The position numbers and the translations under genes are program-made. From NCBI GenBank assembly GCA_001790855.1, contig MGDH01000021.1, positions 18,581 through 82,580 on the forward strand: DNA of 64,000 nucleotides, written 5' to 3'. The stretch is from Candidatus Schekmanbacteria bacterium RIFCSPLOWO2_02_FULL_38_14. Lineage in GTDB: Bacteria; Schekmanbacteria; GWA2-38-11. This document shows positions 51,866 through 64,000 of the stretch, piece after piece. Positions within the stretch are counted from its first letter, which is position 1, and every line of letters begins with the position of its first letter. Below the pieces are notes generated by a model, which was not told where the DNA came from, ran no database searches, and worked only from the letters and a program-made list of their open reading frames with translations.

Positions 51866-51909
51866 GGGCAGGGCTTGTTCCTGCCCTCGGACAGCCATAA
51901 AGGCTGTCC
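51866..51909. terminator. Two adjacent hairpins downstream of lysC
   Basis: GGGCAGG-loop-CCTGCCC at 51866-51886 is directly followed by GGACAGCC-ATAAA-GGCTGTCC at 51889-51909. They lie 28 bp after the lysC stop. They may end transcription of the operon, though a U-rich tail is absent; they also belong to the small palindrome families of this genome. Confidence 0.5.
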
Positions 51910-52060: not shown

Positions 52061-52312
52061 TTAAAGCTCCTCAGACTCCTTTGTCCATGGGGGAGCGCTT
52101 TTTCCCTCAGCACAGCTCACCATTAGACCGCAGATATCAGATTTTACTATATCCTTCTGCAGAATCGATCTTAAGGCCTCTTTTAGCCTATCTTTAAATT
52201 CTGGGTCTGGTTCTTTCTCATCTCTTTCGGCTATAAGGGAAAGCGCTACCACTACCAACTCTTCTAAAAGTTTATCAAGGCTTATCTCAATCTTTAGGTG
52301 AAACTTTGCCAT
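52061..52312 (-). CDS. Small hypothetical protein at the end of the electron-transfer cluster
   Basis: 83 residues, highly charged, no membrane segment: LKIEISLDKLLEELVVVALS then a hydrophilic helix and CGLMVSCAEGKSAPPW. The AAAGGAGG site six bases before the ATG supports expression. I do not recognise a family. It starts 12 bp after the stop of the exported coiled-coil protein and is the last gene of the minus-strand cluster that runs to 64 kb. Confidence 0.65.
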   Translation of the reverse strand: MAKFHLKIEISLDKLLEELVVVALSLIAERDEKEPDPEFKDRLKEALRSILQKDIVKSDICGLMVSCAEGKSAPPWTKESEEL

Positions 52313-52324
52313 CTCAATCCTCCT

Positions 52325-53116
52325 TTAAAAGACCTTTTTTCTTACCTCTATATCTTTTACAAAATTTATCTTACCCTTTTCTACCTCTACATCAGGGTCA
52401 AGACGCAGGCGCCTTATCCATGTTTCTTGGGAAGGGGGCTTCCAGAGGATTTTATATTTTCCTACAGGGATATTCAAAAATTTATAATAGCCATCATTAT
52501 CTGTGGTGGTCTCAAAAACTACCCCTACCTTTATCTCTTTGAATATGCCAAAAAAGGAATCTGCCTGAAGGATCTTTGCTATCTTCACCCTGCAACCTTG
52601 AAGGGGTCTGCCAGAAGAAAGAATCCTTCCTGCCACATCTCCTACCTCTACTGGCTCTTCCTTTTCCCTTTCTGCTATCATCTCCTTTTCTATCTGCTCC
52701 TTGACTTGAGTCATTACCTCTTTTTTTATCAGCTCTTTTATCTCTTCTTTTTTTACCCCAGGCTCATCTCTTGCCTCTTCTGACCTCTCTTCCTCTCTTT
52801 CTTTTAAGCCTTCTTTCATCCTTGAAAATCTTATCACTATATGAGATTCAGATATCTCAATCACCTTTCCTTTAATCCCTTCATTTTTATCTTTAAAATA
52901 GATTATGTCAGGATCAGGGCCCTTTTTTCCAAAATCAAGGTTTAAAGATTTTATCTCCTCTTTTTTAAATTTTATCGTTATGGACTCATCATCCATATCA
53001 AGAAGTTCTCCTTTGCCCTCAAAGAGAGGGCTTTGCCCGGTTGAGATTTTTGTTAGAAAGATGCAGAGGAAAAGAAGAGATGATAATAAGAGAATTTTTT
53101 TAAAATTATTTGGCAT
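52325..53116 (-). CDS. Exported coiled-coil protein with C-terminal carboxypeptidase-regulatory-like domain
   Basis: 263 residues. A signal peptide (KKILLLSSLLFLCIFLTKIS) is followed by two short beta segments (GELLDMDDESITIKF; GKVIEISESHIVIRFS). A charged coiled coil covers about residues 95-155. The C-terminal part (VGDVAGRILSSGRPLQGCRV ... TDNDGYYKFLNIPVGKYKI) is a beta-sandwich of the carboxypeptidase regulatory-like type. It overlaps the upstream cytochrome gene by 11 bp. It is likely to be a periplasmic structural partner of the cytochromes; this is inference from context. Confidence 0.7.
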   Translation of the reverse strand: MPNNFKKILLLSSLLFLCIFLTKISTGQSPLFEGKGELLDMDDESITIKFKKEEIKSLNLDFGKKGPDPDIIYFKDKNEGIKGKVIEISESHIVIRFSRMKEGLKEREEERSEEARDEPGVKKEEIKELIKKEVMTQVKEQIEKEMIAEREKEEPVEVGDVAGRILSSGRPLQGCRVKIAKILQADSFFGIFKEIKVGVVFETTTDNDGYYKFLNIPVGKYKILWKPPSQETWIRRLRLDPDVEVEKGKINFVKDIEVRKKVF

Positions 53117-53537
53117 TAGAAAGCCCCCTTATAAAATAGATGATATTTTTAATCTCCTCCTCATTAAAGGTATTTTCCCAGGGAGGACATAGGTTGGATT
53201 TTCCAAAAAATGCAGGGCCCTTGCTTATGGACTCAAAAAGATATTTATTAGATAATTTTTCCATATATCTTTTTTCAGTAAAATTCCTGGGCTTTGGAGA
53301 GAGTTCAGTTGCAACATATCTTCCATTTCCATCCCCCTTTTCTCCATGGCAGGGACTGCAATATTTTAAAAAGATTGCCTTTCCCTTTTTCTTGGCCATG
53401 AGGGCAAAATTTGGATTATTCCCCTTTGCCTCATTTTTATCTTTTGAAATTTCACAGCCAAGAGACAAAAATAACAGTATACTTAAAAATATCAACAACT
53501 TTAAGAAAAAAGCCAGAATTCTACAATTTTTTATCAT
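53106..53537 (-). CDS. Monohaem cytochrome c lipoprotein
   Basis: 143 residues. Lipobox LSLGC ends the signal peptide near residue 28, so the mature protein should be lipid-anchored. A single haem site CSPCH lies in IFLKYCSPCHGEKGDGNGRY. The C-terminal helix FNEEEIKNIIYFIRGLS is typical of class I c-type domains. It overlaps the octahaem gene upstream by 4 bp and the coiled-coil gene downstream by 11 bp. It would pass electrons between the cytochrome b complex and other carriers. Confidence 0.88.
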   Translation of the reverse strand: MIKNCRILAFFLKLLIFLSILLFLSLGCEISKDKNEAKGNNPNFALMAKKKGKAIFLKYCSPCHGEKGDGNGRYVATELSPKPRNFTEKRYMEKLSNKYLFESISKGPAFFGKSNLCPPWENTFNEEEIKNIIYFIRGLSNAK

Positions 53538-56158
53538 TTATCTTTAAAAGCTAATTTTTCTCCATTTATTTTCTTTTTATCTGATGCCAAAAAGGCTGTA
53601 AGAGAAGTAGCCTCCTCCTCAGATAAACCGAAGATAGGTTCTGCTGCTTGGGCGGTAAAGCGATGGGGGTCTTTTATATACTGATATATGTAATTGGAAT
53701 AAAGCCTTTTTCCTGCTTTTGTTAGATCAGGTCCTATGACTCCACCTATCCTTCCCATCTGATGACAGGTATGACAACCCTTTTCAAAGAAGAGCCTCTC
53801 TCCCTTTTCTTTTAAAGAAGGCTCGCCTATCTTATCCTCTGAAAATAGCTCTTCCATCTCTTCATCAATCAATTGAGCTTTTATGTAATCAGTAATTGTC
53901 TCCACTTCTCTCGGTGTTAAATTCCCCTGAATCATATTTTTTTCAGAAGAGATATTGAACTGAGGCATCTGCTGGAGAAGCGGTCTTATTATATTGGGCG
54001 AACTCAAAAAATTTTTAAGCCATTCTCTCTTTGCCTTGCTCCCCACATAGGTCAAATCAGGGGCATAGTTTGCGCCGACTCCCCTTATCTTATGACAGGT
54101 GAGGCAGTTGATATCCTCTGCTATTAAGCCGAAGTCTCCTGAGGGCTTATAACCCTTCCATTTAAATGGGTATTTTAAATTTTGGATATCTCTTCTCTCC
54201 TTTAATCCCAATAAAAATGTAACAATTCCCTTTAACTCCTCTTCATTAAAATTAAAATAGGGCATCTTTAACTTTTCATCCTCATTTTTGACCTTTCCTT
54301 GATCAAAGATTCGCGGGTCTTTTAGTTTCTGATAAAGCCAGTCATCGAGGGTATGTTCCATCTTTCCCTCAAGCAGGGCAAAATCAAGCCTGTCAACCGC
54401 CTTATCTCCGATGTTTGAAAGCTCAGCTCCCACCTTTCCCTTTTTCTCCATCCCTTTTATATCATGGCATCCAGAGCAGCCGTATCGCCTGATTAGACCC
54501 CTGCCCTTATCTATAAAATGACTACCTATTGAGGGTTTTGCCTTTTTTATCTGAAAAGTCTCCTCAGCTTGAAATTCAGGATCCCTCATAATAAATTCTA
54601 TAAGAGCTCTTATCTGGCCATCAGTAAATCTATATCTGGGCATTATGCTTTTGAGAAAATATTTCTTTGGCTCCTTTATCCAGGAATAGAGCCAGTCCCT
54701 TCCAATTTTTTCAGTTATATTTCCCAAATCAGGTCCTATGTCAAAGGCTCCTCCAAGACCATTCAAGGAATGACATATAGCGCACCTTGATTGGCCCCAT
54801 AATCCTTTTCCCTTCTGATAGAGGAGATCCATTGCATTAAACTCCATATCGCTCATCTCATCTTCCCTTTTTAAAAGATATGGGTCCCAGTGGTATTTAG
54901 GAAGAGGCGCTTCATTTATGCTTTTTAAATATTCTATGATCTCAAAAATCTCTTGGGAATTTAATTTAAATGTCGGCATCCTCGGACTTGCGAGAGAATT
55001 TTTTGGCTCAAGGAGCCAGTTAAAAATCCATATTTCATTGGTCTTTAAAGTTACATTCAAAAGTGGTGGCCCTATCTTTCTCTTTTTCTCAAAGCCTTTG
55101 ACATTGTGACAGCCATAGCAACCCCTCTTTTCAAAGAGGCTCCTGCCCAAGTTTAAGTAAGGCGCATCTATTAATTCTTCTTCTCTTTCATGACATTTGT
55201 AGCAGGAGGCTTCAATATAGGTTAAAGAAAGTTGGGGATATTCCCAGTGTTCAAGCCTTTTCCAACCGAATCTCTCCTTCCATTGTTTTTTCTTTGTTTC
55301 ACCAGAAGGGGTATGGGAGGCATCAGTAAAACTATCAGCAGGACCCTGGCCCTCATGGCAGATGGTGCATCCGAATTTAGCTAATGGATGGGGAGACTTA
55401 CTTGAAATAAAAAGCCTTAAATTGGGATGTCTCCTATAAGGCTGTCTCTCTTCTTCAAAACCAGCTTTATCTATGCCCAAATGACACGAGATGCATCTAT
55501 CAACCTTATCTGGGATTTCATCATTATCAAGATCAAGGAGAACCTGTTTTATCGCTATCGGTTCTTTTTTTATATTCTCTTTTTTCTTTTCTATCTGCTC
55601 TATTTCAAAAAGAAATTTATTTTCCGTTTCGCTTAAAATCCCTCTTTTCCCTTCCATGGATTTTATCTTTTCTTTTATCCCTTCAAGGCTTTTCTCGTAA
55701 TTCAAAACTATGGGTTTTGATTTTGTCATCTCGCCCTTCCATCTTTTCATAGCTTTCCATTGGCTGGAGGTTTCTTTCTTTTTATCTTTTAATTTTTCAA
55801 AGAAATATTTGACCGCATCGTATTCACTTTTGGCAAATTGATATGCCTGGTCTTTTTTGTAAAGGTTATATTCAAGATCCCACTGTTCTTTGACTAACTT
55901 TTTGTATGCTACATCTTTATTCAACTCTTTTAATAATTTTTCCCTTTTCAATCCCTTCTTCTTTAATTCTTCTCCCGAGAACCCGAGTTCGCCTTTAACC
56001 CTTTGAAAAACATCTTCTTTTGCCTTATCATTTTTTTTTAATTCCATGGACTTGAATTCCCTCTGATATTTTTTCCATTCCCTGTTATAATCATCCTCCA
56101 ATGACCAAAGGAAGGTCAAAACCAGAAGAAGGGTTGAGATGACAAAGGCTTTTTTCAT
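53534..56158 (-). CDS. Octahaem cytochrome c with a long helical N-terminal domain
   Basis: 874 residues. Signal peptide (1-20), then about 200 residues of charged helix (probable coiled coil, many Lys and Glu). Eight CxxCH sites follow: C222ISCH, C264TICH, C319YKCH, C347YGCH, C459AICH, C561SGCH, C675LTCH and C785HTCH. The first three are closely spaced; the last five each start a class-I-type domain (GxxLF, then CxxCH, GPDL, and usually a downstream MP axial Met region). The gene lies 4 bp from the cytochrome b half and overlaps the monohaem gene. The layout points to a periplasmic electron-distributing subunit of the Rieske/cytochrome b complex. Confidence 0.85.
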   Translation of the reverse strand: MKKAFVISTLLLVLTFLWSLEDDYNREWKKYQREFKSMELKKNDKAKEDVFQRVKGELGFSGEELKKKGLKREKLLKELNKDVAYKKLVKEQWDLEYNLYKKDQAYQFAKSEYDAVKYFFEKLKDKKKETSSQWKAMKRWKGEMTKSKPIVLNYEKSLEGIKEKIKSMEGKRGILSETENKFLFEIEQIEKKKENIKKEPIAIKQVLLDLDNDEIPDKVDRCISCHLGIDKAGFEEERQPYRRHPNLRLFISSKSPHPLAKFGCTICHEGQGPADSFTDASHTPSGETKKKQWKERFGWKRLEHWEYPQLSLTYIEASCYKCHEREEELIDAPYLNLGRSLFEKRGCYGCHNVKGFEKKRKIGPPLLNVTLKTNEIWIFNWLLEPKNSLASPRMPTFKLNSQEIFEIIEYLKSINEAPLPKYHWDPYLLKREDEMSDMEFNAMDLLYQKGKGLWGQSRCAICHSLNGLGGAFDIGPDLGNITEKIGRDWLYSWIKEPKKYFLKSIMPRYRFTDGQIRALIEFIMRDPEFQAEETFQIKKAKPSIGSHFIDKGRGLIRRYGCSGCHDIKGMEKKGKVGAELSNIGDKAVDRLDFALLEGKMEHTLDDWLYQKLKDPRIFDQGKVKNEDEKLKMPYFNFNEEELKGIVTFLLGLKERRDIQNLKYPFKWKGYKPSGDFGLIAEDINCLTCHKIRGVGANYAPDLTYVGSKAKREWLKNFLSSPNIIRPLLQQMPQFNISSEKNMIQGNLTPREVETITDYIKAQLIDEEMEELFSEDKIGEPSLKEKGERLFFEKGCHTCHQMGRIGGVIGPDLTKAGKRLYSNYIYQYIKDPHRFTAQAAEPIFGLSEEEATSLTAFLASDKKKINGEKLAFKDK

Positions 56159-56162
56159 AGGA

Positions 56163-57215
56163 TTAAATATTAAACCAGGGAGTGACTATCAGATATTTTA
56201 AATTTATGGTCCATGTTAAAAACATCTTTATAGGCAGAGCAAGCATTATCAAGAGAAGAACTATGGTTATTACAAACCGTAAAAATCCGAGGCTTTTATA
56301 AAAATCTCTCTTTAGGATAGCTAAGATCAAAGGTAGACCAAAAAAATAAAGAATTAGGAGAAAAAATCCAGGAAGTTCCCTGATAATCCAGTGGCTTTTA
56401 GGGTTGAGGCCTAAAATTTCTGAAAGGTTTACATTTGTTAAGGGTTCCACTTTGTAAGTGTCCCATTTTTCATAAGGGGAGAAAAAGTTCCAGCCAGGTC
56501 CCCTCAAAAAGGTTCCCACAATTATTAGAAAAACCCAGAGGATTAAAAACCCGAATAAGAATGTGGTTACTGCAAATTTTCTTTCAGAGAGGGTATAATA
56601 GCCATTCCCTTTTGGGTTTGTATCAATATAGGGAATCGCCATAAGGCCAAAAATGATAAGAAGGGGTAAAAGAACACCTGCTATCCAGGGGTCATAATAG
56701 ACAAGCATCTCTTGAAGACCTAAAAAATACCAGGGAGCCTTAGCGGGATTTGGAGTCTTTGTAGGATTTGCAGGCTCCTCTAAGGGAGCATCAAGGAGGA
56801 TGGACCAGACTGTTAGAAAGACAGTAACAAGGATCATAACTATGAGTTCTCTGAAGACCAGCTCAGGCCAGACATGGACTTTCTCAATCGCTTTAGGATT
56901 TGATTTTGTTCCCCCATTGTTTTCTAATTTTTTTGCAACATCATTAAGACTTGCCTTTTTTAAGCCAAGATAAGTGAAAAAAATGACCAGAAAGAGCATA
57001 AAAGCAATTGCCACATTATCCGGTTTTGTTATTATCTTTTTAAAATTTTCATTAAAACAGGAGATGATAAAATATATTAAGATAAGAATACCAAGAAGAA
57101 CAGAGAACTTAAGGGAAGTTATAATTTTATAAAATTTAAGGATTAAAAAAAAGATAAAGATAACTAAGGAAAAAGAGATTCTCGGATCAAAGAGAAAGTT
57201 TAAAAAATCAATCAT
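56163..57215 (-). CDS. Cytochrome b C-terminal half (subunit IV-like)
   Basis: 350 residues with about eight membrane segments, longer than b6f subunit IV (about 160) because of an N-terminal four-segment extension (residues 1-90). The conserved core is VWPELVFRELIVMILVTVFL, LEEPANPTKTPNPAKAPWYF, LGLQEMLVYYDPWIAG. The Qo-site PEWY motif is represented by APWY, so the usual Glu is absent. It pairs with the b6-type protein encoded 13 bp upstream. Together they form the split cytochrome b of a quinol:electron-acceptor complex. Confidence 0.85.
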   Translation of the reverse strand: MIDFLNFLFDPRISFSLVIFIFFLILKFYKIITSLKFSVLLGILILIYFIISCFNENFKKIITKPDNVAIAFMLFLVIFFTYLGLKKASLNDVAKKLENNGGTKSNPKAIEKVHVWPELVFRELIVMILVTVFLTVWSILLDAPLEEPANPTKTPNPAKAPWYFLGLQEMLVYYDPWIAGVLLPLLIIFGLMAIPYIDTNPKGNGYYTLSERKFAVTTFLFGFLILWVFLIIVGTFLRGPGWNFFSPYEKWDTYKVEPLTNVNLSEILGLNPKSHWIIRELPGFFLLILYFFGLPLILAILKRDFYKSLGFLRFVITIVLLLIMLALPIKMFLTWTINLKYLIVTPWFNI

Positions 57216-57228
57216 AAATTATAAAGAA

Positions 57229-57987
57229 TTATAAAGGGCCTGAAATCCCGCCATCCTTTCTTACCCTCCAGAAATGGATGGCCATTAAGATCCCTGCAAC
57301 CAGAGGGATTCCGACGCAGTGCCAGACATAGAACCGCAAAAGGGCATTTCCTCCAACAAACTTGCCGCCTATAAGGGCAAATCTGATATCAGAGCCCGCA
57401 TCAACTATTGCAAAGGGTCCCTCATGGCCTAAAAATGGAGTTGCCCTCGCCATATTGGTTCCAACAGTGATTGCCCACATAGCTAACTGATCCCAAGGCA
57501 ATAGGTATCCGGTAAAAGATAAGAGAAGGGTTAAGACCAAAAGGACAACACCGAGCACCCAGTTAAATTCCCTCGGTTTTTTATAAGAGCCTGTCAAAAA
57601 TACCCTGAACATATGAAGCCAAACAGTTATCACCATCCCATGACCTGCCCATCTGTGGAGGTTTCTTAAAAGCATCCCAAAGGGAACATCAAATTCTATA
57701 TATTTCATATCTATGTAAGCTTCCCTTGCTGTAGGGTGATAATAAAACATCAAAAGCAGGCCTGTTATGGTCTCCACGATGAAGAGAAAAAAGGTTATTC
57801 CTCCCATGCACCAGGTGGAGGAGAGCTTCAAGCCATCTTTTCTTAACCGTATTGGATGGAGATGCAGGAAGAAATTGGAGACAACAGCTAAAGCTCGGTT
57901 TCTCGCGGTTTTAGGAAACTCATGCCTGAATATCGATTTATAAACCTGACTTTCTAAAAGCCTCTCGATAAAATTTTTTTTGTCCAT
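57229..57987 (-). CDS. Cytochrome b6-type protein (N-terminal cytochrome b half)
   Basis: 252 residues, four main membrane segments. The haem ligand pairs are H111/H125 ([19 protein letters not shown]) and H223/H238 (VWHCVG ... AIHFW). The spacing of 15 in the second pair is that of cytochrome b6 rather than bc1. C60 in [13 protein letters not shown] aligns with the Cys of b6 that covalently binds the extra haem c(i). The Qo region has [20 protein letters not shown]. It follows the Rieske gene by 6 bp. It oxidises quinol at the periplasmic face. Confidence 0.92.
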
Positions 57988-57993
57988 AGTAGT

Positions 57994-58500
57994 TTAAATT
58001 CTCAAAAAGGCTTCAGGATTTTCCCATTCTTCTTTTTCAAATAGAAACTTTGAGCTCTTATCAATGAGGATTTGACCATCCTCAGCCAAAGTTATCTTAA
58101 ATTTTTCTAAGGGCCTCGGTGCAGGGCCCTCAAAATTTCTTCCATCTCTGTGAAAACCACTTCCATGGCAGGGGCATTTGAATTTATTTTCTGCCTCAAG
58201 CCAGTTAGGGGTGCATCCTAAATGCGTGCAGACTGTTGAGAGGGCAAAAAACCCCTCCTTTTCCCTGACTATCCAGACCCCAAATTTGTCTACCCATTTT
58301 GTGCTGACGCCTGAGGAATACTCCTCAGGAAATCCTGCTTTGAAAGAGGACAAGGGCTCAAAGAGGACATTGGGGAAAAAAAATCTGATAGTAGCTGCAA
58401 GGGATCCTGTAAGGGTTGCAAAAAAGGCTGCCCAAGCAAGGCCGAGTGATGTAAAAATTTTTAAAAAATTTCTCCTCGAATATTGGCTATTTACGCTCAT
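57994..58500 (-). CDS. Rieske iron-sulfur protein
   Basis: 168 residues. The N-terminus has a Tat-type signal (SRRNFLKIF) with an uncleaved membrane anchor. The Rieske motifs are CTHLGCTP and CPCHGSGF, which give the two His and two Cys ligands of the [2Fe-2S] centre plus the disulfide. It takes electrons from quinol at the Qo site and passes them to cytochrome c. The gene is 6 bp upstream of the cytochrome b6 gene. The TatBC genes at 37 kb provide the export route. Confidence 0.95.
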   Translation of the reverse strand: MSVNSQYSRRNFLKIFTSLGLAWAAFFATLTGSLAATIRFFFPNVLFEPLSSFKAGFPEEYSSGVSTKWVDKFGVWIVREKEGFFALSTVCTHLGCTPNWLEAENKFKCPCHGSGFHRDGRNFEGPAPRPLEKFKITLAEDGQILIDKSSKFLFEKEEWENPEAFLRI

Positions 58501-58524
58501 TTATGCCTCTTGCATGTCAGACCT

Positions 58525-59028
58525 TTACCTCTTGATCATCTCTAATGCCCAGGCTGATACCTTTTTTATACCTTCATCCCTCTCTTTGCTTAAATTTATA
58601 AGACAGCTTTGAGCCCTTTTTTCTTTAAGGTTTCCCAGGGCCAGAATAGAACAGATCTTAAGCTCTCTTTTTTTGCTAAAAAGGGCCTTTATTAAAAAAG
58701 GAGATGCCTTTTTATTCTGCATCTTTCCTAAGGCTAAAGCGGCAAACATCTGAATCTTTTCATCTTTATTTTTTGAAAGCAGATTTATCAGCTCGTCGAC
58801 AATTTTTGGGTCTTTAGATTTTTGTAGGGAAAAGACCCAGGCTGCCTGCCATCGCCTGTTGTCTTCATAACCTTTTATCTTTTGTAAATATTGAAGTCCT
58901 CCATCCCTTTCAAAAAAATAAGCTGATATAAGTAGAAAGCTAAAAACTCCTGATGAAACAATTAAGAAAGGGAGAAGGAGCATCTTTGATATAAATCTTA
59001 TACTAATCCATTTTTTGATATCCCTCAC
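58525..59028 (-). CDS. Membrane-anchored HEAT-repeat protein
   Basis: 167 residues: one membrane segment (MLLPFLIVSSGVFSFLLISA, about 15-35) and then three or four HEAT-type helical repeats (KIQMFAALALGKMQNKKASP, LKICSILALGNLKEKRAQSC). No catalytic motif is seen. It overlaps the four-cluster ferredoxin gene by 26 bp and precedes the Rieske gene by 24 bp, so it should be co-translated with both. It may be an assembly or docking factor for the complex; its role is inferred from position only. Confidence 0.75.
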   Translation of the reverse strand: MRDIKKWISIRFISKMLLLPFLIVSSGVFSFLLISAYFFERDGGLQYLQKIKGYEDNRRWQAAWVFSLQKSKDPKIVDELINLLSKNKDEKIQMFAALALGKMQNKKASPFLIKALFSKKRELKICSILALGNLKEKRAQSCLINLSKERDEGIKKVSAWALEMIKR

Positions 59029-59461
59029 CCTCCTTTATCCCTACACTCACCCTCTCTTCTATTCTTATTGCCCTTTTTATGCATATCTCCTCACAGAGGC
59101 CGCAACCAACGCATTTTTTAAAATCGACTTTGACAACCTTATCAAAACTCTCTCCATGAGGATATTTAATAAGGGTCAGAGAACCAAAGGGGCAGATTCC
59201 AACACAGTTCTCGCAGCCATTGCAGTCATTAATATTTACAATGGCTTTAGGCATCTCCTGCGGTGAAATCCTTTCTATGACCTCTCCGAGACTATTAACA
59301 ATTGCTGATTGCGGACAATATCTTCCGCAGACACTGCAATCAATACAAAAGTTTACATCTATAAAATACATCTTTTTCCTCTCCCCAGAAATAGCAGAAA
59401 CTGGGCATTTGATAGCGCATACTCCGCACCCTACGCATTTCTCTGTTATAAGATGTGCCAT
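59003..59461 (-). CDS. Ferredoxin-type protein with four [4Fe-4S] cluster motifs
   Basis: 152 residues containing four CxxCxxCxxxC motifs in a row: CVGCGVCAIKC, CIDCSVCGRYC, CNGCENCVGIC and CVGCGLCEEIC. Sixteen cysteines could hold four clusters. No signal peptide, so it should be cytoplasmic or bound at the inner face of the membrane. It is encoded 8 bp after the copper protein gene and overlaps the HEAT gene. A polyferredoxin in a Rieske/cytochrome b operon is unusual and may link the complex to low-potential cytoplasmic electrons. Confidence 0.9.
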   Translation of the reverse strand: MAHLITEKCVGCGVCAIKCPVSAISGERKKMYFIDVNFCIDCSVCGRYCPQSAIVNSLGEVIERISPQEMPKAIVNINDCNGCENCVGICPFGSLTLIKYPHGESFDKVVKVDFKKCVGCGLCEEICIKRAIRIEERVSVGIKEGEGYQKMD

Positions 59462-59469
59462 TAGCCCTC

Positions 59470-60069
59470 TTATTTTCTAACTAATTTGCTGAATTCCACC
59501 TGGATTTCCTTTGAGGCCTCCACAGTGATCTCCTGACTCTGGGGCCTCAATTTCTCATGCCAGACTGTTATTTTATATTTTCCAGGAGAGACATTTTTAA
59601 TTATAAAATCCCCTTTTCTATCAGTCAGGGAAAAATATGGGGTCTTGCAAACAATGATATAGGCTGACATCTCAGAATGAACATTGCATAAAAGCGGAAC
59701 AACACCAGGCTCATCGAATTTGACCTCTTTCACAACGCCAACATCATAGGTTCCTAAATTAAAAACCTTTGCTGAGCCCTTTGGAGAAAAGACATTGTGC
59801 CTTACAGTATCAGAATTGGGAAAATCCACAGTTGCTCCAACAACAATTGGCAACACATGGGGAATGAAGACCAGATTCTTCTGGTCCATTATGGCATGCT
59901 CTTTTGGAGAATCAAATTTTTTGTCAGAGCCGTTTTCAAGATACACCACTGCCTCAAGTCTTGAAACCCAGGGGCTTTTGACCTTACCTGTTATAGTCCC
60001 TCCTCTCTCTTCTCCTAAACCCTTCTGTGCAAAAAACAGGATGATTAAAATAAAGATATACTTTTTTAT
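59470..60069 (-). CDS. Blue-copper (cupredoxin-like) exported protein, probable AUA start
   Basis: About 199 residues. From ATA at 60069 the chain begins with a signal peptide (IKKYIFILIILFFAQKGLG). The cupredoxin-type core has a candidate His ligand (DTVRHNVFSPKG) and the C-x2-H-x2-M group in PLLCNVHSEM. A carboxypeptidase-regulatory-like C-terminus follows (DRKGDFIIKNVSPGKYKITV). The first conventional start (GTG, 59949) would remove the signal peptide and first strand. AGGAGGG lies five bases before ATA. It would act as a periplasmic electron carrier next to the cytochrome complex. Confidence 0.8.
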   Translation of the reverse strand: MKKYIFILIILFFAQKGLGEERGGTITGKVKSPWVSRLEAVVYLENGSDKKFDSPKEHAIMDQKNLVFIPHVLPIVVGATVDFPNSDTVRHNVFSPKGSAKVFNLGTYDVGVVKEVKFDEPGVVPLLCNVHSEMSAYIIVCKTPYFSLTDRKGDFIIKNVSPGKYKITVWHEKLRPQSQEITVEASKEIQVEFSKLVRK

Positions 60070-60081
60070 TTTCTCCCTCCT
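60070..60081 (-). promoter_or_regulatory. Ribosome binding site deciding a non-standard AUA start
   Basis: On the minus strand AGGAGGG (60081-60075) is followed by AGAAA and then ATA at 60069-60067. No other start codon lies in the frame between the upstream TGA and residue 41 of the protein, so this site marks the likely start. Confidence 0.65.
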
Positions 60082-60083
60082 TT

Positions 60084-61382
60084 TTAAAAAGCAAAATCAA
60101 GCCTTGCTAAAAAGGCATCCCTGCTATTATCCTCGCCTTTTCTTATCCTTGAACCATCAACGAATTCTCCATCTACAACCACCTTTAAATTTGCCCTTAT
60201 GGAGACGGTGGCGCTTACTATAAATTTTTTTATCTCATTTAAATCTTCTGAATTCGGGCCTTTAAAATTTAAATCCTCAAATCTCAGTGCACCGACAAGC
60301 CATGGGAAAAAGACATAATTTGCCTCACAAAAAAAGAGGCTGCTTCCAACATCAAATCCGTCATTGGCAGGGTTTTCATCATCGCCCCAAAGGTATGCAC
60401 CGACCAAATCAAGGTCTTGGTAATTGATCCTGAAATCGACTCCGAGCCTTATAAAATCTATGTTATATTTTCTGCCCAGTCCTGCTACATCGCTTGCGGT
60501 ATTTGCTCCAAAATAACCAAAATGGCCAACAGTTATGGAATTGTCCTGCCAGTTCTCTGTCTGCTTTAAGGATTCCTCAAGCTCTGCGCCTGCTCCATCA
60601 AAGCCCATCCCCCACAGTTTAAAAGCAGTCCTGTAATAAAAATCCTTTTTTGAATTGTTGTCAGGAGAATCACCGGACCCATTGGTCAGACCAAAAAGGT
60701 ATTTAAATCTGCTAAAAAGGACTCCATCTATTTCAAATCCACTCTGCCTATCAAATTGAAAATTATTTGCATTTCCATTGGCAAACTCCAGATTAAAGGT
60801 GCTAAAGAGATTCTGGACTACAGTGAGCCGTCTCTCATTTGAAAAGGCTACAACACCAGGTTCAAAGAGGCCGATCCTCAAATTCAGAGCATATCTTGGA
60901 ATTTTATTATCAAAGAGATTGTTAAATTGGATATAGACCCTTCGTCCCTCACCTATGTGGCCAAAAAAGGAGATATCCCTTCCGAGAGTCCCTCCCACCA
61001 GGAAAAGAAAGGTCTCAGGAAAGGTAAAATCACCCTTTACATCACCCTTCTCCCTCTGCTTTATGGCAAACCTTGTCAAGAAGGCGATGGGAGGAAGGTG
61101 AGGGAACTCTCCAGGCCAGACAGAATAGGGCCACATCATTTTCCACTCCTCAGCTCCGAGGCTTACAGGCTCATCCTTCACATAGATTTCGTCATCCTGG
61201 GGGATCTGAAAGCCATTGGCCCTAAAAGCCTCTCCAAAATCATTAAGCTTTGGAAAGACCACATGGCAGGTAGTGCAGGATGTCCTGTATTTTCTCGCAA
61301 AGGCTGGAATCGCTCCTCCCTCCTTTTCAAGAATTAAGGAAAATATTAAGCTCGCTATAATAAAAATAAATAACCTTTTCAA
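60084..61382 (-). CDS. Outer-membrane porin with an N-terminal c-type haem motif
   Basis: 432 residues. Signal peptide (1-23), then FARKYRTSCTTCHVVFPKLN with one CxxCH site and FGEAFRANGFQIP. The remaining ~380 residues alternate short beta strands rich in aromatic and Gly residues, with the final strand DAFLARLDFAF ending in Phe, as in outer-membrane barrels. Such haem-bearing porins occur in anaerobic respirers and may conduct electrons or ions across the outer membrane. It lies 14 bp before the AUA start of the copper protein and 30 bp after ccsA. Confidence 0.75.
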   Translation of the reverse strand: MKRLFIFIIASLIFSLILEKEGGAIPAFARKYRTSCTTCHVVFPKLNDFGEAFRANGFQIPQDDEIYVKDEPVSLGAEEWKMMWPYSVWPGEFPHLPPIAFLTRFAIKQREKGDVKGDFTFPETFLFLVGGTLGRDISFFGHIGEGRRVYIQFNNLFDNKIPRYALNLRIGLFEPGVVAFSNERRLTVVQNLFSTFNLEFANGNANNFQFDRQSGFEIDGVLFSRFKYLFGLTNGSGDSPDNNSKKDFYYRTAFKLWGMGFDGAGAELEESLKQTENWQDNSITVGHFGYFGANTASDVAGLGRKYNIDFIRLGVDFRINYQDLDLVGAYLWGDDENPANDGFDVGSSLFFCEANYVFFPWLVGALRFEDLNFKGPNSEDLNEIKKFIVSATVSIRANLKVVVDGEFVDGSRIRKGEDNSRDAFLARLDFAF

Positions 61383-61412
61383 CTCTTCTTAACCTCCATT
61401 TCTTTAAAAACC

Positions 61413-62207
61413 TCAAGCATAGCTATGAAGTCCTGGCAAGAAATAGGTTACTCCCAAATAGGTAAAAATGACGGATAAAAAGCCTATGATGGAAATAAAA
61501 GCAGCCCTTGCTTCCCTCCATCCCATAACAAATCTCAAATGGAGATAGGCAGCATATATAAACCATGTGATCAGAGACCAGGTCTCTTTTGGATCCCAGG
61601 CCCAGTAAGAACCCCAGGCCTGCTCAGCCCAGATAGCGCCTGAGAGGATTCCGAGGGATAAAAATGGAAACCCGAATACAACGGATTGATAGCTTATTTC
61701 ATCGAGGGATAAAAGAATTGGATCCCTTTTTGGATTTTTAGATTTTGCTTTAAAAAAATATAAAAGGCTTGTAATAAAGGATAATGTAAAGGCAGCATAT
61801 CCTAAAAAGCTCACAACTACATGGAAGATGAGCCAGTTGCTGCGAAGCGCAGGAATCAGAGGCTCAACCGACTTATCAAAAAAAGAGGAGTAGTTTAAAA
61901 TGAGCAAAGCGGATATTGAAACAAAAAAATCCAAAAAATCAATTTTAAAAATTGCCTTGAAAATCAAATAGACAAAGACCACTGCCCAGGAAAAGAATAC
62001 GAGGGATTCATAGATATTAGAAAAGGGTGGCCTTTGGGCCTCGCGCCATCTCTCTATGATGCTTAAGGTCTCAATAGCAAATCCTAAAGAAAGAATGGAA
62101 AAAGCTATCTTTTGGATAAAATCCTTTTTAAAAGCCCAGTGGATTCCATAGAGGATGCTTGATGCTAAATAGAACCCCATTGTTCCATTAAGAAGCCCTG
62201 TAGACAT
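61413..62207 (-). CDS. ccsA: CcsA/ResC cytochrome c biogenesis protein
   Basis: 264 residues, about eight membrane segments. The canonical haem-binding WWD loop is present: WGSYWAWDPKETWSLITW. External histidines are in FHVVVSFLGYAAF and at the C-terminus (LPGLHSYA). With ResB it forms the system II synthetase that attaches haem to CxxCH sites. It overlaps resB by 20 bp. It is the second such pair in the window and, unlike the first, has intact motifs, so it is the likely maturation system of the cytochromes in this cluster. Confidence 0.93.
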   Translation of the reverse strand: MSTGLLNGTMGFYLASSILYGIHWAFKKDFIQKIAFSILSLGFAIETLSIIERWREAQRPPFSNIYESLVFFSWAVVFVYLIFKAIFKIDFLDFFVSISALLILNYSSFFDKSVEPLIPALRSNWLIFHVVVSFLGYAAFTLSFITSLLYFFKAKSKNPKRDPILLSLDEISYQSVVFGFPFLSLGILSGAIWAEQAWGSYWAWDPKETWSLITWFIYAAYLHLRFVMGWREARAAFISIIGFLSVIFTYLGVTYFLPGLHSYA

Positions 62208-63339
62208 CCTTCCTCCCTTTTGAGTAAAATCTCGGATATAGATGAAAGCCTAATCCTAAAGTGAAAAGAAGAAATCCAGCATATATAAAAGGAACTGAAG
62301 GATCCTTGACGATCTTTAATATTGTCCATTGATAGGCAATAGGGTCATAATCATACTGGTAGAAGCTATATCCCATAAATTTTAGGGGGGCATTTACCTT
62401 GACAAGGCCTTCTGTGCTATCCTCTTTGCTAAAAATTCTTATGCTGCTTATAAGGTCTCTGATATCAGGCTCTCTTTTGTAGTAGGTCAAGATATTTTCA
62501 TCTGCCTTGATATTAATATCAAGATAAGGATTATTGGAGAAAAGCCATCTTATATCCCTTTTGCCAAAAGGTTCTATGATAGCAAGCTTTAACGCAGGAC
62601 CCTTTAATGCCTTTATCTCTCTTACCTCTATTGGAATGCTCGCATCTTTTGAAAAGTCAGGGGTTTCCTTTAAGATCAAAATCTTGTAAGGGGTCCCCTC
62701 TAACTTGAATTCCCTTTTACCATTTAAAACAAAATCCCATGTAATATTTTTTTCTAAGAGGGTTATCTTAAGACGGCTTTTGAAATTCTTGTATGTTTCC
62801 CTCGTAAAATCCTGCAAGATAATATTAAAATCTAAGGACCTTGGCTTATTATATCTATCATAGAAGATATTTGCCCTTTCTCCCTTCTTAAGTTTTACAA
62901 GCCCTTCCTCCCCAAACATAAGTCCAACAAGACCTCCAGCAGCAATCAATATAAGGCTTAAATGGAGGAGGATCGAGGGGATAGGTATAACCTTCCGTTT
63001 AATCCTTAGAGCAGTGCACAACAGAAGATTCTGGGAAAAAAGAAAAAGGAGAAAAATAAACCAGAAGGAGTGGTAGATGTCATTAATAGAGAGAAGACTT
63101 ATTAATTTATAACCTATTCTTCCAAATCTCCCCTCATAATAGCCTTGGGGATGGTTTTGGACTATTACTGTTCCTAAAAAAGAGCTAATGCAAATGATGA
63201 GCATCAAAAATATCCCTGTCTTCATCGAAGAAAGGAAATTAAATATCGGATAAATTCTCACTATAAAACCTTTCTCAGTATGAAACAGTCCCCTTAAATT
63301 TATTTGAGCATCAGCTTCCATATTTTTAAAACCCTTCAA
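62188..63339 (-). CDS. resB: ResB cytochrome c biogenesis protein
   Basis: 383 residues. First membrane segments at IFNFLSSMKTGIFLMLIICI and SFWFIFLLFLFSQNLLLCTA, a third near residue 127, an extracytoplasmic domain (about 150-345), and a last segment (DPSVPFIYAGFLLFTLGLGF). Typical ResB layout, somewhat short. It overlaps ccsA downstream by 20 bp and the upstream cytochrome gene by 4 bp. It forms the system II haem lyase with CcsA. Confidence 0.9.
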   Translation of the reverse strand: MKGFKNMEADAQINLRGLFHTEKGFIVRIYPIFNFLSSMKTGIFLMLIICISSFLGTVIVQNHPQGYYEGRFGRIGYKLISLLSINDIYHSFWFIFLLFLFSQNLLLCTALRIKRKVIPIPSILLHLSLILIAAGGLVGLMFGEEGLVKLKKGERANIFYDRYNKPRSLDFNIILQDFTRETYKNFKSRLKITLLEKNITWDFVLNGKREFKLEGTPYKILILKETPDFSKDASIPIEVREIKALKGPALKLAIIEPFGKRDIRWLFSNNPYLDINIKADENILTYYKREPDIRDLISSIRIFSKEDSTEGLVKVNAPLKFMGYSFYQYDYDPIAYQWTILKIVKDPSVPFIYAGFLLFTLGLGFHLYPRFYSKGRKDVYRAS

Positions 63340-64000
63340 TTGTTCTTTGCTCCCTGGTCTATCCAGTTCTTAATTTTCAGCTGATCCTCTATTGACAGAT
63401 AGGGTCCGCCTTGGGGCATCCGCTCTCCTACTGGAGGCTTAGGCATGGATACTTTCTGATATATGAGGCTCTTTGTAGCATTTTTCGGGACAATTTCTGG
63501 ATTGGTATTATTGTTATTACCGCCTAAAATTAAGGTATCATAAGAATCAAGCCTTAAACCACCAGAGCTATTTCCTCCTCTGTGGCAGGAGCAGTTGGCA
63601 GATAGGATTGGAAGGATATGGGCATGGAAAGAGATTTTTTTTATCCCGCCATTACCTCCATTGCCATTTCCTCCGTCTCCATCTGGGGGAGGCTCCTCTT
63701 TAGGAACAGAGGGAACAAAAACAGTGCTCGCCTTTATTTGTTCAGGCAGGTAAAAAAGAAAATCAACCTCTTCTGTTGGTCCACTTACTGCCTGATAAGC
63801 TGGGGCATTTCCCTCCTTGTTTATGTTGTCTTGGTAGGTGGCTTTTCCTTTGTCGTTGATTATTGTTGCAAGGGTGTCATCAAAGCTTGATGCTGAGATA
63901 AAGTGCATATCATCAGCAAAGCCTACTGGATTTGTCCTTGCTGACTTCCACTGCCAGATATCCACAGAGCCAGCCGTTGTCCTCATCCTGGGCTTTGGAC
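63336..64000 (-). CDS. Ethylbenzene dehydrogenase-like haem protein fused to a cytochrome c domain (5' end outside window)
   Basis: The frame is open to the window end (PKPRMRTTAG...), so the N-terminus is missing. The visible part has two regions. First, a segment like the C-terminus of ethylbenzene-dehydrogenase-related haem-binding proteins (MRTTAGSVDIWQWKSARTNP, FADDMHF). Second, after a Gly/Asn/Pro-rich linker, a planctomycete-type c-haem domain with SANCSCHRGG, RLDSYDTLILGG and the ending MPQGGPYLSIED ... IKNWIDQGAKNN. It overlaps resB by 4 bp. It would be the most upstream cluster gene in the window and an exported electron carrier or enzyme subunit. Confidence 0.72.
   Translation of the reverse strand, partial: PKPRMRTTAGSVDIWQWKSARTNPVGFADDMHFISASSFDDTLATIINDKGKATYQDNINKEGNAPAYQAVSGPTEEVDFLFYLPEQIKASTVFVPSVPKEEPPPDGDGGNGNGGNGGIKKISFHAHILPILSANCSCHRGGNSSGGLRLDSYDTLILGGNNNNTNPEIVPKNATKSLIYQKVSMPKPPVGERMPQGGPYLSIEDQLKIKNWIDQGAKNN

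Follow-up and report, generated by a model that had tools for sequence, protein, structure and literature searches.

A Schekmanbacteria gene cluster in which a Cyc2-like porin-cytochrome and a cupredoxin adjoin a Rieske/cytochrome b/octahaem complex

Introduction

In neutrophiles it is unsettled how Cyc2-type cytochromes of the outer membrane deliver electrons to the inner membrane, and alternative complex III (ACIII) and bc1 have been suggested for this step by genome co-occurrence. Which carrier and which inner-membrane complex a Cyc2-like protein could be wired to is the question raised by a gene cluster of Candidatus Schekmanbacteria bacterium RIFCSPLOWO2_02_FULL_38_14. The cluster lies at positions 52061-64000 of a 64,000-nucleotide stretch of contig MGDH01000021.1 (contig C21, 18581-82580; assembly GCA_001790855.1, 2.68 Mb in 43 contigs), hereafter called the window. 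We consider it fairly probable, from the sequence, that this cluster specifies a route for electrons linking outer membrane and quinone pool, in which a Cyc2-like cytochrome-porin (gene K) and a cupredoxin (gene J) accompany a Rieske protein, a split cytochrome b and an octahaem cytochrome c (genes G, F, E and D). The wider operon family names a candidate carrier (the cupredoxin) and an inner-membrane partner (ACIII or the Rieske/b/octahaem complex) for Cyc2-like proteins. Such a pairing makes the Cyc2-to-inner-membrane question open to expression and deletion tests.

Gene content of the cluster

The region contains 14 genes, all on the minus strand and with intergenic gaps of -26 to +30 bp. 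They are predicted to form one operon, which is cut off by the contig end, coinciding exactly with window position 64000. The gene classes and the tight packing given in the initial annotation were both borne out by the list of open reading frames (ORFs), Pfam/NCBIfam scans and motif counts. The genes are as follows (aa, amino acids).

Gene A, 52061..52312, minus strand: 83-aa ORF, final gene of the operon
Gene B, 52325..53116, minus strand: 263-aa exported protein with a CarboxypepD_reg-like domain
Gene C, 53106..53537, minus strand: monohaem c-type cytochrome, 143 aa (PF13442, PF00034)
Gene D, 53534..56158, minus strand: octahaem cytochrome c, 874 aa, with class I cytochrome c domains
Gene E, 56163..57215, minus strand: C-terminal half of cytochrome b, petD-like subunit IV (PF00032)
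Gene F, 57229..57987, minus strand: b6-type cytochrome b (PF00033, E 1e-43)
Gene G, 57994..58500, minus strand: Rieske [2Fe-2S] protein (PF00355)
Gene H, 58525..59028, minus strand: membrane-anchored HEAT-repeat protein (PF13646, E 8e-14)
Gene I, 59003..59461, minus strand: polyferredoxin (four PF00037 domains)
Gene J, 59470..60069, minus strand: cupredoxin with a CarboxypepD_reg-like domain (PF00127, PF13620)
Gene K, 60084..61382, minus strand: Cyc2-like fused monohaem cytochrome-porin, 432 aa
Gene L, 61413..62207, minus strand: CcsB/CcsA of system II cytochrome c maturation (TIGR03144)
Gene M, 62188..63339, minus strand: ResB of system II cytochrome c maturation (PF05140, 117 bits)
Gene N, 63336..64000, minus strand: truncated by the contig end; EB_dh (haem-b gamma-subunit-like) and PSCyt1-like domains (PF09459, PF07635)

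Gene K, a Cyc2-like protein

The published Cyc2 diagnostic consists of AXPXFAR[Q/K][T/Y] upstream of a single CXXCH, PXL four residues downstream and a length of at least 365 aa (PMC8406198). The N-terminus of K reads AIPAFARKY-RTS-CTTCH-VVF-PKL, with no second CXXCH in its 432 aa, and all of these features are thus found in K, the motifs within AIPAFARKYRTSCTTCHVVFPKL. Like the Cyc2 porins, K also has a signal-like N-terminus and ends in an aromatic residue (Phe), the C-terminal signature of outer-membrane proteins, which is shared by 26 of 33 homologues. Unlike them, it shares one operon with a quinone complex. On motif, single haem site, PXL and length, K would be classed as Cyc2-like, with iron oxidation only putative: the motif is common to a broad family, some members of which occur in bacteria without known iron oxidation (PMC5566968). 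Cyc2 proteins are expected to form a 16-strand outer-membrane barrel; the number of strands with alternating hydrophobicity in K was 10 against 9.9 in shuffled sequences, i.e. no difference, and no solved structure resembling K was found.

The initial annotation described K as a haem-bearing barrel but overlooked the Cyc2 motif, which changes the probable purpose of the cluster. A cupredoxin together with an outer-membrane barrel is more plausibly part of a pathway than of a single complex.

The K-J cassette in other genomes

K alone was used as query, first against 290 relatives and then against two further phyla, and neighbourhoods were read only afterwards, at 25 loci that include the window's own copy (nearly all E < 1e-25). 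A J-type cupredoxin adjoined K in about 20 of the 25, and in 17 a quinone-level complex lay downstream of K on the same strand. The partner was a Rieske/b/octahaem complex in four loci, from four phyla including the window, and an ACIII-type complex (ActB, NrfD and mostly also a monohaem c) in 13; these loci are not independent, and most of the ACIII cases come from one phylum. In the K tree, strongly supported branches force at least two switches between partner complexes, and K and J therefore behave as a portable cassette, placed upstream of either type of complex.

The same gene order, which the initial annotation had proposed to look for elsewhere, was indeed recovered. In two genomes of other phyla (loci L173 and L257) the order is K-J-X-G-F-E-D-C, where D has eight haems and X is an NAD(P) oxidoreductase (Pyr_redox_2 and Fer4). 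A third (L243) shows J-K, then after an interval G-F-E-D, again with eight haems. Accessory genes recur next to the core as well, namely HEAT with Rieske and ferredoxin with HEAT. This recurring order supports the earlier proposal that the extra genes belong together.

Compared with the ACIII operons, the present cluster shares the cassette found upstream in 13 of them, but ACIII is an ActB/NrfD-type complex unrelated to Rieske/cytochrome b, and family scans detected no ActB Mo/Fe-S-like or NrfD-like subunit in the window cluster. We tentatively suggest, as a possibility still short of an even chance, that a portable Cyc2-like porin-cytochrome and cupredoxin cassette links the cell surface directly to the quinone complex that is present in a given lineage, be it Rieske/b/octahaem or ACIII. 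In the present case one operon would also span the quinone pool and a dedicated cytoplasmic four-cluster ferredoxin, a low-potential carrier.

The literature already contains the core complex, the genome-level co-occurrence of Cyc2 with ACIII, and the rus/petI pair. The open-licence literature searched yielded no description of an operon that combines a Cyc2-like/cupredoxin pair with Rieske/b/octahaem or with ACIII, which is weak evidence of absence. The porin-cytochrome/cupredoxin cassette is apparently undescribed, and the full wiring from surface to quinone in one operon seems undescribed too.

Loci L180, L182, L185 and L190 hold a separate clade of K-like proteins of about 400 aa, each adjoining a pentahaem cytochrome of about 450 aa. 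This is a second recurrent pairing, in which no cupredoxin neighbour is present. No named Cyc2 relative turned up in a search of plasmids.

The Rieske/cytochrome b/octahaem core

Genes G, F and E have the features expected of a b6f-type quinone complex. G bears both Rieske boxes (CTHLGC at 91, CPCHG at 109). F has the His pairs 111/125 (spacing 14) and 223/238 (spacing 15) for two haem-b sites, and Cys59 within WCMGGIT as the haem c_n site. E has eight predicted membrane segments and the Qo motif APWY; PEWY is not present in E, and APWY is likewise found in 97 of 103 relatives. E also contains a conserved WPxLxxxE whose Glu, as we align it, maps close to where haem c_n is ligated; ligation of haem c_n by glutamate has been modelled in the Kuenenia complexes (PMC12954380).

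D contains eight CXXCH and holds the genetic place of cytochrome f/c1. It is not itself a cytochrome f but an octahaem class I-type cytochrome. The structure model, of moderate confidence, has an N-terminal transmembrane helix, long helices at 27-198 and then class I cytochrome c domains. An octahaem protein of the HAO type (HAO/OTR-like fold) was also considered and rejected in favour of class I cytochrome c by Pfam, PDB sequence and Foldseek, the Foldseek matches being weak and the model only of moderate confidence.

A genome-wide search with F gave 80 named loci spanning Poribacteria, Nitrospinota, Nitrospirota, NC10, Omnitrophota, Acidobacteriota, Planctomycetota, Sericytochromatia and others. 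Nearly all of those that are long enough have the order Rieske-F-E-D, mostly with eight haems in D. The core is common in Poribacteria, Nitrospinota, NC10, Omnitrophota and Acidobacteriota. The operon has been described in Nitrospina gracilis, and Kuenenia and Methylomirabilis were stated to share it (PMC3578206). In Kuenenia, the complexes Kustd1480-1485 and Kuste4569-4574 combine a large multihaem protein, long-helical in the case of Kustd1485, with a cytoplasmic-side NAD(P) oxidoreductase proposed as acceptor of bifurcated electrons (PMC12954380). The core is thus a widespread and previously described complex, not a new one. The initial annotation knew of no described complex of exactly this composition, and so overstated the novelty of the Rieske/split b/octahaem core (PMC3578206, PMC12954380).

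The window's complex resembles those of Nitrospina, Kuenenia and Methylomirabilis in its contiguous Rieske, cytochrome b, subunit IV and octahaem c genes and in its b6-like cytochrome b with a haem c_n Cys. It resembles that of Kuenenia further in the long-helix octahaem build of D and in having a cytoplasmic Fe-S module, which here is the four-cluster ferredoxin I and there the NAD(P) oxidoreductase. Other differences from the Nitrospina/Kuenenia complex are the extra N-terminal membrane segments of E, the Cyc2-like barrel and cupredoxin ahead of the core, and the HEAT and monohaem c genes.

Accessory proteins

J scores 20 bits with PF00127, just below the cut-off, and has intact type 1 copper ligands H90, C127, H130 and M133 (numbering from the listed ORF at 60066). 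No ATG, GTG or TTG precedes its signal peptide. An AGGAGGG Shine-Dalgarno sequence is followed by an in-frame ATA codon (window 60067-60069, minus strand) right after the K stop. The start of J is probably this non-standard ATA, which would be either a rare start codon or an assembly error. C has one CXXCH (CSPCH) and the lipobox LSLGC. About 35 Poribacteria have both C and J downstream of the octahaem gene; in NC10, Acidobacteriota and Omnitrophota only J stands there.

I has four CxxCxxCxxxC [4Fe-4S] motifs and no signal peptide, and is probably cytoplasmic. It is 49% identical to the ferredoxin of a paralogous cluster on contig C9 of the same genome and 44% identical to that of the Sericytochromatia locus L043. 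H has one membrane segment; in Omnitrophota, Vicinamibacteria and Planctomycetota its homologues immediately precede Rieske, and in two Sericytochromatia ferredoxin and HEAT genes stand together downstream of an octahaem-type gene.

Proposed electron path and alternative explanations

In the path that we favour, electrons would pass between K, J (and C), D, Rieske/cytochrome b and (mena)quinone. The monohaem lipoprotein C and the type 1 copper protein J are candidate periplasmic carriers, and L and M are the c-haem maturation proteins of the operon. I, whose slot in the operon is taken in relatives by the NAD(P) oxidoreductase X, may pass electrons on at the cytoplasmic face. This replacement offers a natural variant for asking whether such complexes feed low-potential electrons to the cytoplasm.

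As to direction, we give inward flow about an even chance and outward flow a clearly smaller one. In the inward case, the donor oxidised would be soluble and outside the cell, for example Fe(II), and part of the electrons would be pushed to quinone in reverse. It is favoured because a Cyc2 haem (+208 mV; PMC8406198) and a blue-copper centre accept well from Fe(II) and poorly reduce ferric minerals. Acidithiobacillus is the nearest working precedent: its rus operon (cyc2-cyc1-cup-coxBACD-rus) supplies an aa3 oxidase with electrons through Cyc2, copper proteins and c-type cytochromes, and its petI operon encodes a bc1 complex, with resBC adjacent, that operates in reverse in Fe(II) oxidation (PMC2754497, PMC10654088). 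The two systems share a protein of Cyc2 type, a copper protein, c-type cytochromes and a quinone complex accompanied by resBC-type genes; they differ in that Acidithiobacillus has separate operons, an aa3 oxidase and a true bc1, and the present cluster one operon with a b6-type complex and an octahaem cytochrome.

Several observations weigh against an outer-membrane path of this kind. The barrel of K reached a predicted local distance difference test score of only 32 in a single-sequence AlphaFold2 model. Family scans found no terminal oxidase (aa3) genes in 52061-64000, and the genome's oxidase candidates are a 142-aa COX1-like fragment and one bd-like oxidase. The electron sink of an inward path is therefore in doubt; a DMSO (dimethyl sulfoxide)-reductase II-type enzyme is a further candidate sink in the genome. 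Moreover, the form in which K-J joins Rieske/b appears sporadic: at the search threshold, K was found in none of 46 other sampled genomes of the phylum of genome G196, and no close K homologue was present in the relatives G001-G003, the sample searched containing at most three other genomes from the host's order.

A serious rival, though on balance unlikely, is outward extracellular respiration with bifurcation. Menaquinol would be oxidised at Qo, the high-potential electron passing through Rieske, D, C/J and K to an external acceptor and the low-potential one through haems b and c_n to I. The Kuenenia complexes Kustd1480-1485 and Kuste4569-4574, with their cytoplasmic Fe-S NAD(P) oxidoreductase, have been proposed to bifurcate (PMC12954380), and X precedes Rieske in L173, L257 and the cluster on contig C18 of the same genome, a place equivalent to that of I here. 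The Geobacter ext cluster (ExtHIJKLMNOPQS) also joins a porin to a Rieske/b complex, and resembles the present one in grouping porin, Rieske, b-type cytochrome, subunit IV-like and multihaem cytochrome genes; ExtI, however, is not described as a haem porin, and the multihaem proteins are different (PMC5877670). Membership of F and E in the ExtP and ExtQ families was rejected, the NCBIfam scores (267.8 and 58.4 bits) being below the cut-offs of 290 and 150 bits. Against outward flow, a single-haem porin-cytochrome and a blue-copper protein, expected at +200 mV or more, would not readily reduce ferric minerals, and the operon has no multihaem outer-membrane conduit. Less probable again is a purely periplasmic module, in which the core donates through C and J to a type II DMSO-reductase-family enzyme or an oxidase, K being an ion or metal porin with a structural haem. 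EB_dh-type genes near three of the genome's four Rieske/b clusters (C9, C18 and gene N here), the DMSO-reductase II alpha/beta/gamma-like proteins encoded on C9, and the Poribacteria, NC10 and Acidobacteriota that have the core and J-like cupredoxins without K are all consistent with it. Against this module stands the repeated placement of the K-J pair ahead of two unrelated quinone complexes. Finally, the redox genes might share an operon solely for joint expression; the accessory genes and their order do vary (H, I, X, C and J shift about), but the same order recurs in distant phyla, far above the chance of such genes falling within a few kb, and we regard co-location without functional unity as very improbable.

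Other Rieske/b clusters of the genome

The genome has three further Rieske/b clusters, on contigs C9, C18 and C36; that on C36 is of a different type, with PEWY. The C9 cluster (G000:C9:18000-50000; L023, L211) is a paralogous Rieske/fused cytochrome b/octahaem cluster that includes an I-like ferredoxin; it is followed by type II DMSO-reductase genes (alpha-, beta-, chaperone- and gamma-like) and by a J-like gene. The start of the cluster in G001 is the same as in C9. On C18 (G000:C18:48000-68900; L024, L212), a GltD-like NAD(P) oxidoreductase directly precedes Rieske/fused cytochrome b, accompanied by a pentahaem c, ActB-like and NrfD-like genes and several tetrahaem and multihaem proteins, with an EB_dh gene last.

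Boundaries and flanks of the operon

Gene A had no match in the Pfam scan, and B matches PF13620 at E 1e-5, below the family cut-off. L exceeds its TIGR03144 cut-off (269 bits vs 188). At 51866-51886 the minus strand has a terminator-like hairpin, a weak signal, as the scan found 13 such hairpins against 15.2 expected by chance. The initial annotation had A-rich and palindromic repeats filling the rest of the window, which was not supported: no 14-mer reaches five copies in the window, and inverted repeats are few both outside the cluster (10 pairs over 52 kb) and within it (3 over 12 kb). That the cluster is free of intergenic repeats is trivial, since it has almost no intergenic space.

In the PSCyt1-like domain of gene N, NCSCH (window 63575-63595, minus strand) replaces a canonical CXXCH, and covalent haem binding may be absent. 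The 5' part of N is probably located at the end of contig C5, which terminates within an EB_dh gene. What suggests the join is collinearity with the tandem EB_dh paralogue, to which the C5 fragment aligns first (45% over 128 aa), followed in order by N (33% over 85 aa); a search for an exact sequence overlap between C5 and the contig end at 64000 gave none. Upstream of the EB_dh gene, C5 encodes two sensor-type ORFs and an NtrC-type regulator, as judged by sequence resemblance and not by family scan. The first of the two tandem EB_dh genes (G000:C5:32781-34070; L213) is broken by a stretch of Ns with a shift of frame, which probably represents a scaffolding gap.

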